Source of the DNA: Prevotellaceae bacterium
Lineage (GTDB): Bacteria > Bacteroidota > Bacteroidia > Bacteroidales > UBA932
Length of the DNA stretch: 35,992 nucleotides
Reading direction: 5' to 3'
NCBI GenBank assembly: GCA_031263185.1
Contig: JAISGH010000233.1
Span: 1 to 35,992 of the forward strand
Shown: positions 22,282-29,480 of the stretch, piece after piece
Layout of the letters: every line of letters begins with the position of its first letter
Position numbering within the stretch: the first letter of the stretch is position 1
Program-made: the position numbers and the translations under genes
Notes under the pieces: model-generated
Databases searched by the model: none
What the model saw: the letters and a program-made list of their open reading frames with translations, nothing else
Told to the model about the DNA's origin: nothing

Positions 22282-23109
22282 TTAACTGTAAATTGGTAAA
22301 ATAATAGATTCTGTATCAAGGTTTTGTTGAATAGCCCAACGAAAATTTGTTTTGCCTTCTTTGGAATATGACGGTTCTAAAAGTACAAACGAATTTGTCC
22401 GTAATTTTTGCAGCTCGTCAATCGCTGCATTTTTGATTTCCAACAATTCGAGCAAAAAACCAATTCGCTTGATTACAGCCTGTGAATCAAAGAGTTTTGC
22501 GTATTCCAAAAGTTTTGAATAATCAATTTTTTCTTTTACTTTGTAAATTGCCTTTGTGATTTCGGTTATTCCTCCGGCATAATCGGGCTTGAACAGGCAG
22601 TCAATAATCGTTTTCTCTAAATCACTGCACTGCACACGATTAAAACTGTCAATCCAAGTTTTTTTATTGCCGAAAAAATGTTTTTCGTTGTGATAAACGA
22701 ACTGAAAAGGAATATTTTTTACAATCAGCGTTGATGGCTTAATTTGTTTATTTACAACGATTTGTTCTTTTAAATTGGGTTGCGTAGTGAGGGAATGAAT
22801 TTGCAGTGCCGAAAAATAGCCGATATAATATTCTGCCTCGCCAGCAAGATATTGAGCGAGCAAATGCCAATCGGGCATAAAAGTCGCAGCGTCTTGTTCA
22901 AAGGGAATTACATAGTAAAGCCCCTCTTTCACGCGCATCAGCAAACCGCGTTTGGTCATATTGCTCAACAACTGTTTCACAGCATCTTGGCTTGAATTCG
23001 ACAAAATTTGATATGCTGTATCAATACCGAAACAGACCGTTTTTTCTTCAATCAATCTGTCGAGCAATGCGTTTGCCTGAAATGATATGTTTTTATTTCT
23101 TATAGACAT
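22282..23109 (-). CDS. AbiEi-type antitoxin / transcriptional regulator
   Basis: N-terminal wHTH (DAVKQLLSNMTKRGLLMRVKEGLYYVIP), then ...YYIGYFSALQIHSLTTQ..., CSDLEKTIIDCLFKPDYAGGITE: AbiEi family layout. Confidence 0.88.
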   Translation of the reverse strand: MSIRNKNISFQANALLDRLIEEKTVCFGIDTAYQILSNSSQDAVKQLLSNMTKRGLLMRVKEGLYYVIPFEQDAATFMPDWHLLAQYLAGEAEYYIGYFSALQIHSLTTQPNLKEQIVVNKQIKPSTLIVKNIPFQFVYHNEKHFFGNKKTWIDSFNRVQCSDLEKTIIDCLFKPDYAGGITEITKAIYKVKEKIDYSKLLEYAKLFDSQAVIKRIGFLLELLEIKNAAIDELQKLRTNSFVLLEPSYSKEGKTNFRWAIQQNLDTESIILPIYS

Positions 23110-26545: not shown

Positions 26546-27658
26546 CTACCGTATTTTCAAAAACATTTTTCCCGGCAAAGATTTAATTAGCCCGCCGAAC
26601 TCCAAGCAGAGCAGCGACGACGAAACTTGCGGCATGGATAGCCCCGTGCTGCGGCAAATAACGTCAATGCTTTGCGCTTCGGTAGCGGATAAAAATTCGA
26701 GCAGCTTTTTTTCGCTATCCGACAGCTCCGCCGCAAACAGCGGCAGCTGCACGGGCTTCTTTCGCGAAACGTCCCAGCTAAGGTTGTACGCCACGTCGGC
26801 AGCGCTTTCGATGAGGGCAGCTTTGTTGGTTTTGATGAGCTTGTGGCATCCCTCCGAGGCTTTGTCGCCCACGCGCCCGGGGAACGCCATCACGTCGCGG
26901 GCGTAGTCCACCGCCATGCTTGCGGTGATGAGCGCCCCGCCCTTCTCCGCCGACTCTACCACAATGGTAACGTCGGCCATGCCCGCTACAATGCGGTTGC
27001 GCCGCACAAAGTTGGACGGGTCCATCAGGCACCTCGAAGTAAAATCGCTCAGCAGGGCGCCTCCCTGCTGCACCATCTCCTGCGCAACGTTGATGTGCTG
27101 GGCAGGGTACACCATATCCAAGCCGTGCCCCACCACGGCAACGGTTGTCAGGCCGTTCTTGAGCGCGGCGCGGTGCGCGCAAACGTCAATGCCAAACGCC
27201 AGACCGCTCACCACAAGCGGCGCGTACACGCCCGCCAAGTCGCGCACCAGATTTTCGCACTGCTGCCTGCCGTAGGCGGTGGCGCTGCGCGTGCCCACTA
27301 TGCTTACCACCTTGGCAGCGTTGAGGTCTGCCGTACCCTTGGCGTACAGAACAAGGGGGCAGTCGTCGCAGTTGCGCAGGCGCTCGGGGTAATTTTTGTC
27401 CAAAAAGGAAAGCGCCTGTACGCCGTTTTTTGCCATGAACTCCAGCTCTTCGTCGGCGCGGTTGAGCGCGGTCTGCCGGGAGGCGGCAAGGGCGTTGGAG
27501 AGCGCCGGCCCCACGTCGGGGATGCGAAGAAGCGCCTTTGGCGACGCCGTAAGCACAGCCTCGGCGCTGCCGCAGTAGGCAATAAGCTGCTTGGCGGTAA
27601 TGCTGCCTACGCCGGGAATGAGCGTGAGGGCAATTTGGTATTGAAGCTCGGAGTTCAA
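26546..27658 (-). CDS. dprA: DNA-processing protein DprA
   Basis: HhH N-terminus; VSIVGTRSATAYG, SGLAFGIDVCAHRAAL, NRIVAGMADVTIVVESAEKGGALITASMA. Confidence 0.96.
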   Translation of the reverse strand: MNSELQYQIALTLIPGVGSITAKQLIAYCGSAEAVLTASPKALLRIPDVGPALSNALAASRQTALNRADEELEFMAKNGVQALSFLDKNYPERLRNCDDCPLVLYAKGTADLNAAKVVSIVGTRSATAYGRQQCENLVRDLAGVYAPLVVSGLAFGIDVCAHRAALKNGLTTVAVVGHGLDMVYPAQHINVAQEMVQQGGALLSDFTSRCLMDPSNFVRRNRIVAGMADVTIVVESAEKGGALITASMAVDYARDVMAFPGRVGDKASEGCHKLIKTNKAALIESAADVAYNLSWDVSRKKPVQLPLFAAELSDSEKKLLEFLSATEAQSIDVICRSTGLSMPQVSSSLLCLEFGGLIKSLPGKMFLKIR

Positions 27659-27865
27659 AATGTTTTGGAGTCGCGCTAAAAGGTAAAAGGTATGCTATTC
27701 TTAAAAAAACGGCAATCAAGGAAAAGCTGCATTTTCCGGTTTTGTGAAAAAAGCAGCAAAAGCTTCGGCTATCCCCCACATTGCAGAGCGCAAACTTACA
27801 TGAAAATCGCGAAATCTACAAGCGCATACGGTAGAATTTTTTTGCGGAAAAAGGCTCGCTTACCA

Positions 27866-28030
27866 ATAAAAAAAAGGCGAGGTATTACCCCCCGCCCCTG
27901 ATGTTTTCACAACGGAATAATCCTTATTGTGATTTTCTTGAAAAAATCTGTATCTTTGACATCGTCTTTGACATCAATAGCTGCGAAGTAACCATCAGCG
28001 ATAACTCTGCAGCTGTTTCGTCAAAGATTT
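27866..28030 (-). ncRNA. Candidate structured small RNA with own promoter and intrinsic terminator
   Basis: -7 box TACATTTG (28037-28044) with TTTG 18 nt upstream; 5'-end stem AUCUUUGAC/GUCAAAGAU; 10-bp hairpin AGCUGCaGAGU/ACUUcGCAGCU; CACAA/UUGUG hairpin; terminator GGCGGGG-GGUAAUA-CCUCGCC + U8. Confidence 0.6.
27868..27896 (-). terminator. Rho-independent terminator
   Basis: 7-bp stem GGCGGGG/CCUCGCC (one G-U), 7-nt loop, followed by 8 U on the - strand. Confidence 0.8.
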
Positions 28031-28200
28031 ATGCAGCAAATGTACAACAATATTTTCAAATGCAAAAAATAATTTGATTTTTTTGGCTAGATTTTTTTTG
28101 ATGGCGCTACGAAAATTTGATGACATCCTATTGTAATCAATATTTTTATTGCCTTTGGGGCAAAAAATGGTAGCCATTGATGATTATTTTTGCCCCAATA

Positions 28201-28634: not shown

Positions 28635-29480
28635 CTATGCAGCTAACTTTTCTAGCATATCAGGTTGGTGTCTATGGCTCCACGTAACAACATCAGCGCC
28701 TTTACTTTCAAGCGCACCAATATATTCCTGCCTTAATTCTTTTTCTATATCGTTTATAATTGCCAATCCTTTTAGCTGCTTGCCTGATATTTTTTCTCTT
28801 GCAGCTTTAATATCCTCCCAGCCAAATAAAAATGTTGGGACATTGATTTTATTGAGAGAATTAAAAGACTTAATAACTAACTCTTTTTGTTTTCCTGCAA
28901 TCTGAAAATCAAATGTAAATTCTATTCCTGTACTGCCTTTAGCAATGAATTGAGGTGTGTATATGATATTTTGCTCATCAAAGAATCCTCTTACATCTTC
29001 TTTAAACAAGGAAGATACGGTATGCTTGGCCAGCATTGCCATATCCGATATTTCAGAAATAGCGCATAACAAATTATGCTTTTTCTGATTGAAGTCTTTT
29101 TCTGTGCCTTCGGCTTGAAGCTCGTAACCATTTAGCATAATACCATAATTCAATAGTATCATATCAAGCCATTCTTTCCTTTTGGGTGATTGCATGATGG
29201 AAGAACCTACAAGTTTCAGATTAGAAAGAGTTTGTCCATCGTCTGACAGCATTATTCTACCATTATCCAATTTGGCGTATATTTCAATATTATCGTTGAA
29301 TAATCCTAAAAATGGCGTAGTTATTACATACCAACCAGTTTGCTCGTTTTTGGCGACTTGCGTACTATCTCTCAACCATTTATAATATTCTGTTACGCAA
29401 TTATTTATCCATGCATCATTCATAATCATAAAAGCAAGCAAATTCATCATCTTTTTCTGATAGCAATCCAAAGCGCTCAT
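28635..29480 (-). CDS. DUF1828/DUF1829 domain-containing protein
   Basis: ITTPFLGLFNDNIEIYAKLDNGRIMLSDDGQTLSNL (DUF1828-like) followed by ...FTFDFQIAGKQKELVIKSF (DUF1829-like). Start could be MNDAW further in. Confidence 0.8.
   Translation of the reverse strand: MSALDCYQKKMMNLLAFMIMNDAWINNCVTEYYKWLRDSTQVAKNEQTGWYVITTPFLGLFNDNIEIYAKLDNGRIMLSDDGQTLSNLKLVGSSIMQSPKRKEWLDMILLNYGIMLNGYELQAEGTEKDFNQKKHNLLCAISEISDMAMLAKHTVSSLFKEDVRGFFDEQNIIYTPQFIAKGSTGIEFTFDFQIAGKQKELVIKSFNSLNKINVPTFLFGWEDIKAAREKISGKQLKGLAIINDIEKELRQEYIGALESKGADVVTWSHRHQPDMLEKLAA

Follow-up and report, generated by a model that had tools for sequence, protein, structure and literature searches.

The minus-strand RNA encoded near dprA is, with high confidence from its sequence, a type II-C tracrRNA of orphan type, trans-encoded away from a CRISPR-cas locus. 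TracrRNAs pair with CRISPR RNAs to arm Cas9; a location near the cas genes or the array is usual for them, without being obligatory. The window, i.e. the whole stretch of 35 992 nt that was analysed, thus holds an RNA of known kind whose form is unusual, being characterized by its orphan site and a CRISPR-derived 5′ hairpin; most likely it is a trans-encoded tracrRNA or a recent duplicate of one. The sequence-only reading had proposed a novel, 6S-like RNA of unknown identity, but the 3′ ∼100 nt constitute the tracrRNA part. This identity is based on sequence homology with tracrRNAs that adjoin cas9, on complementarity to the genome's own repeats, on promoter and terminator motifs, and on an insertion relative to sister copies.

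In a DNA search of 61 relatives, part 106–144 of the query matches tandem units ∼77 bp apart on several contigs of its own genome, and these units are CRISPR arrays. Part ∼126–205 gives single-site matches in many genomes, which share the core ACAATAAGGATTATTCCGTTGTGAAAACA and lie mostly beside cas9. With up to three mismatches tolerated, the core pattern occurs in 47 of 150 family genomes, and the reversed pattern, used as a control, in none of the 150. A cas9 RuvC-I motif stands divergent, 64–409 bp upstream, in 38 of the 64 distinct core copies, some of the remaining copies being cut by contig ends; most cas9-linked copies also carry a TAnnTTTG box 15–27 nt before the core. Annotated cas9 genes adjoin the core in Prevotella nigrescens (NZ_CP082843.1) and Persicobacter psychrovividus. 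A terminator hairpin with a T-run follows the core in nearly all tracr copies (62/64), with stem sequences that vary freely. In the window RNA as well, the core with its nexus hairpin, homologous to those found beside cas9 in relatives, is followed by a Rho-independent terminator.

The anti-repeat is complementary to the CRISPR repeats of its own genome, where a 47-nt repeat (GTTGTGAATTGCTTCAAAAAATCTGTATCTTTGACATCGTAAACAGC) alternates with spacers of 29–31 nt. It matches arrays on contigs C156, C135, C88 and C47, with predicted duplex energies of –46.7 and –50.6 kcal/mol with these repeats versus –20 ± 3 kcal/mol with shuffled ones (RNAduplex). In a cofold with the repeat, the 5′ hairpin is kept and the nexus is freed. 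Three mismatches interrupt the pairing of the window anti-repeat with the main array repeat, and the shorter anti-repeat of the orphan copy on contig C222 gives unbroken pairing. The array on C156 displays ten identical repeats. In genomes G011 and G020, tracr anti-repeats match the array at the same locus. Among the GTDB representatives scanned, a long anti-repeat of the TCAAAGATAC type directly before the core is found in only one other record, a cas9-linked tracrRNA. Collectively, cas9 linkage, core, terminator and anti-repeat:repeat complementarity indicate a type II-C tracrRNA.

Table 1. Features of the orphan tracrRNA gene, its flanking genes and further orphan copies (window positions unless a locus is named)
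Feature	Position	Strand	Remarks
Bacteroidota-type promoter TTTG-N18-TACATTTG	28037..28066	-	From sequence; TTTG 28066-28063, TACATTTG 28044-28037
Degenerate forward CRISPR repeat (GTTGTACATTTGCTGCATAAATCTTTGACGAAACAGC)	28012..28048	-	Extends over the -7 box and the start of the RNA
5′ extension, long hairpin (UCUUUGACG...CAAAGA stem, inner AGCUGC/GCAGCU hairpin)	27965..28027	-	MFE fold; ∼84-nt insertion versus sister copies
TracrRNA anti-repeat	27926..27965	-	Complementary to positions 1-40 of the 47-nt repeat
Invariant tracrRNA core ACAATAAGGATTATTCCGTTGTGAAAACA	27902..27930	-	0 mismatches to the 29-nt pattern
Nexus hairpin GGA-UUAU-UCC	27923-27914	-	Inside the core
Intrinsic terminator GGGGCGGGG-loop-CCUCGCC-U8	27866..27899	-	Terminator scan; stem 27899-27873
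dprA	26546..27658	-	PF02481 E 9.4e-71, DprA_WH; downstream, same direction, outside the RNA
DUF1828/DUF1829 protein gene	28635..29480	-	PF08861 E 1.2e-21, PF08862 E 1.5e-21; upstream; no sign of belonging to the RNA
Orphan tracr copy G000:C47 (own genome)	L022:137-395	+	Degenerate array units fused directly before the core; upstream of a threonine-synthase-like frame
Orphan tracr copy G000:C222 (own genome)	L023:5520-5610	-	Upstream of a threonine-synthase-like frame
Orphan tracr copy G008:C60	L058:3340-3520	-	Promoter and core separated by an unrelated structured leader of ∼100 nt

The minus-strand promoter, nested stems and terminator that had been read directly from the letters at ∼28066–27866 are all present (Table 1), and so are the individual motifs named there: AUCUUUGAC, the AGCUGC/GCAGCU hairpin, both GUCAAAGA copies, the CACAA/UUGUG hairpin and the terminator with its U8. 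An autonomous structured small RNA gene on this strand is well supported, both by the terminator, found by scan, and by folding: the 165-nt RNA has an MFE of –53.5 kcal/mol versus –32.8 ± 3.7 kcal/mol for 200 shuffles (z –5.6), no shuffle being as stable. The plus strand of the same region gives a fold z of –4.3. Homologues of the promoter precede two orphan copies, on C222 of the same genome (TATTTGAAAATATTGTTATACTTTTG) and on C216 of the sister species G005 (GTATTTAAAAATATTGTAGTACATTTG); this homology is taken from pairwise comparison, because the multiple alignment misplaces the window promoter owing to the insertion. A scan for sigma-70-type promoters found none, as expected for Bacteroidota.

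Compared with the sister copies sharing its promoter, the window copy has ∼84 extra nt. This piece is missing from C222, G005:C216 and the cas9-adjacent copies, and in the first two the promoter runs directly into the anti-repeat, with which the RNA begins. The 5′ hairpin is found in one genome only: no significant similar sequence to the 5′ extension occurs among 60 relatives, its 26-nt centre has no other occurrence in its own genome and the spacer-like 30 nt have no second copy there at up to 3 mismatches. Local alignment of the extra piece and the –7 region with the genome's own 47-nt repeat scores 36, the best of 1000 shuffled repeats reaching 35. The arrangement consists of a forward repeat, then ∼30 nt, then a reverse-complement repeat that contains a tandem duplication of 12 nt and merges into the anti-repeat. 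The forward repeat ends with the AUCUUUGAC seen at the 5′ end of the RNA, and the two GUCAAAGA copies are the tandem duplication inside the reverse-complement repeat. A pair of inverted CRISPR repeats flanking ∼30 nt thus accounts for the 5′ stem and the hairpin as well as for both GUCAAAGA copies.

Alternative pairings of AUCUUUGAC had suggested a bistable fold. Both folds are possible in the model and lie ∼3 kcal/mol apart, at –53.5 kcal/mol with the proximal copy (27972–27965) and –50.4 kcal/mol with the distal one; the proximal pairing would be preferred and would leave the anti-repeat free. The 9-bp pairing with 27960–27952, given in the sequence-only reading, is the less stable one, and since CRISPR-repeat ancestry suffices to explain the 5′ features, a regulatory switch is not needed. 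Conservation in relatives holds for the RNA core and the terminator hairpin, but not at all for the 5′ part. Recombination of a tracrRNA gene with CRISPR repeats, as this locus suggests, agrees with the published proposal that tracrRNAs originate from repeats that were duplicated and relocated (PMC8730458). It is rather unlikely that orphan tracrRNAs whose 5′ leaders are CRISPR-derived or structured in another way (the window RNA and that of G008:C60, with its ∼100-nt leader) represent a Bacteroidales class of trans-encoded Cas9 cofactors or regulators, the leader controlling crRNA pairing or giving a tracr-L-like repressor.

The genes of the window include dprA, recG, the DUF1828/1829 gene and corA, and a protein with an AbiEi-like antitoxin domain (PF09407) is encoded at 22282–23109 (minus strand). 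Neither cas9, cas1 nor a CRISPR array occurs within the window; arrays and cas9 remnants are found on other contigs of the same genome, in an assembly that is 87% complete. On contig C125 (L084:8381-9900), cas9 breaks off after 409 aa, ahead of the beginning of a cas1 reading frame that is itself truncated, and this type II locus is decayed. The contig end interrupts the cas9 of C140, which has a variant tracrRNA of its own. With no complete cas9 on either contig, the window copy may be in use, be kept as a spare or be decaying as a relic. Alignment with the sister species G005 reaches only to window position 27850, where a different gene follows, and no other genus member matched across dprA. 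A leader conserved with dprA can therefore be rejected.

Besides the window copy, its genome carries two further orphan tracr copies, on C222 and C47. Orphans also occur on G005:C216, between recN-like and guaB-like genes (named by eye from translations), and on G008:C60, flanked by a HAD-phosphatase-like gene on one side and a glycosidase-like gene on the other. All four resemble the window copy in core, terminator and lack of a cas9 neighbour. C222 and G005:C216 share its promoter without the 5′ hairpin, whereas C47 has array units at the place of this hairpin.

The presumed course of events, from transcription through RNase III processing to Cas9 loading, with a recombination event in its ancestry, can be outlined as follows. 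The transcript would start near 28030 at the Bacteroidota promoter and end at the terminator near 27866. Its anti-repeat would pair with the repeats of crRNA precursors made from arrays elsewhere in the genome. By established type II biology, RNase III would trim the anti-repeat:repeat duplex, and the nexus hairpin and tail would dock the crRNA into Cas9. The 84-nt 5′ hairpin would have entered between promoter and anti-repeat when the gene recombined with CRISPR repeats, and probably folds alone without blocking crRNA pairing.

Whether such a function persists can be questioned, as the RNA could be a relic, i.e. a fragment of a duplicated tracrRNA or array left after the cognate type II-C system decayed. 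This reading is a sub-case of tracrRNA identity as regards ancestry and a rival only as regards present function; it is a serious possibility, though not the probable one. The truncated cas9–cas1 remnant on C125 speaks for it, as do the three tracr copies in one genome, with C47 fused to degenerate repeats, and the absence of the copy beside dprA in the sister species G005. The window copy, however, retains an intact promoter, core and terminator, with no mismatch in the 29-nt core, and the ten identical repeats of the C156 array suggest recent activity. Another reading, quite improbable, takes the RNA as a tracr-L-like natural single guide, in which the 5′ extension is a repeat mimic and the RNA itself directs Cas9 to a promoter, as in S. 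pyogenes. In its favour, the anti-repeat is preceded on its 5′ side by an element resembling a forward repeat, pairing of the 5′ strand with the distal anti-repeat is feasible and the related loci of G054 and G006 look tracr-L-like. Yet the transcript predicted from 28030 lacks a lower-stem mimic (GUUGUG) and a guide 5′ of it. Only the distal anti-repeat can pair, instead of a guide and repeat mimic pairing with the lower anti-repeat (UCACAA), and in the MFE fold the CACAA of the core is paired with its own UUGUG. The sequence upstream of the repeat-like element, compared with the genome's own cas9 promoters (C125 and C140), gives nothing above chance, a comparison from which the intact cognate promoter may be missing, and by eye no good promoter occurs further upstream.

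Readings unrelated to CRISPR fare worse. A new 6S-like or other Rfam-type regulatory RNA, suggested by the size and the autonomous promoter and terminator, is scarcely credible: Rfam families, 6S among them, give no match at gathering score, relaxed matches are at chance level (best E 0.098, a eukaryotic snoRNA) and the conserved part is accounted for by the tracrRNA identity. A search for tRNAs and tmRNA found none. A non-CRISPR RNA of this type is refuted by cas9 linkage and repeat complementarity. Equally remote is a protein-coding region with the frame DGYFAAIDVKDD..., which the sequence-only reading had kept as an alternative. A short open frame is present, but no conserved frame is seen among relatives, the 5′ part is not conserved, and what is kept in unrelated contexts is the RNA core and the terminator hairpin.

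Single-guide-like RNAs with the same core are found elsewhere. On contig G054:C81, a phage by its portal protein, replication and processivity genes, an RNA resembling a fused single guide (L060:3880-4010, minus strand) is composed of ATATGCAATAGGT, then a CTTAAATTC-ATAA-GAATCTAGG hairpin, the tracr core and a terminator. Its guide-like word also occurs upstream of the tracrRNA of the G054 genome, with a 12/13 match (ATATGTAATAGGT) in the cas9 promoter region. Through this RNA, the phage possibly turns the host Cas9 into a repressor of the cas9 gene. Nine Riemerella phage records, including PJR4 (PQ820060.1, near 43184–43215; L131:2455-2560, plus strand), RAP44, CRP2 and CRP34, contain a non-coding element that has a guide-like 5′ end, a TTATGAAATG-loop-CATTTCATAA hairpin and the tracr core, like a natural single guide RNA; no description of it was found in the literature searched. 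On G006:C192, from the genus of the window, a stand-alone guide with repeat mimic and terminator lies upstream of the tracrRNA (L019:891-1000, plus strand). With its last 10 nt, the guide matches a site on the other strand between tracr and cas9, and the element resembles cas9 autorepressor guides. On G054:C68 (L003/L037), the tracr core of a type II-C-like locus is preceded, 77 nt upstream, by a repeat mimic TTATGATAAGCTAATTTGTA with a short guide. The guides at the host loci of G054 and G006, tracr-L-like or stand-alone, look directed at the region of the cas9 promoter. These phage and host RNAs may merit their own study more than the window RNA.

With the tracrRNA identity, a false candidate for a new RNA class is removed. 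With a simple 29-nt pattern, type II-C tracrRNA genes of Bacteroidales can be detected, including genes duplicated away from cas9, and no Rfam family recognised them here. As compared with known Bacteroidota II-C tracrRNAs (Riemerella anatipestifer, PMC5006608; Prevotella nigrescens, NZ_CP082843.1), the window RNA has the same core, terminator, promoter type and anti-repeat to a 47-nt repeat. In R. anatipestifer, where the repeat also has 47 nt, the anti-repeat TGAAAGCAATTCACAA lies upstream of cas9 and is of the same sequence type (PMC5006608). The window RNA differs by the lack of an adjoining cas9, by its extra 84-nt 5′ hairpin and by an anti-repeat of ∼40 nt versus ∼16–25 nt in the cas9-linked RNAs. 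With tracr-L of type II-A Streptococcus (PMC11417352; PMC8730458), it has in common a structured 5′ extension with repeat-like sequence, but its predicted transcript lacks a guide with lower-stem mimic and a convincing Pcas match, and it is a II-C RNA distant from the cas locus. The G054:C68 locus, in turn, is tracr-L-like though II-C-like, whereas tracr-L is described for type II-A (PMC11417352).
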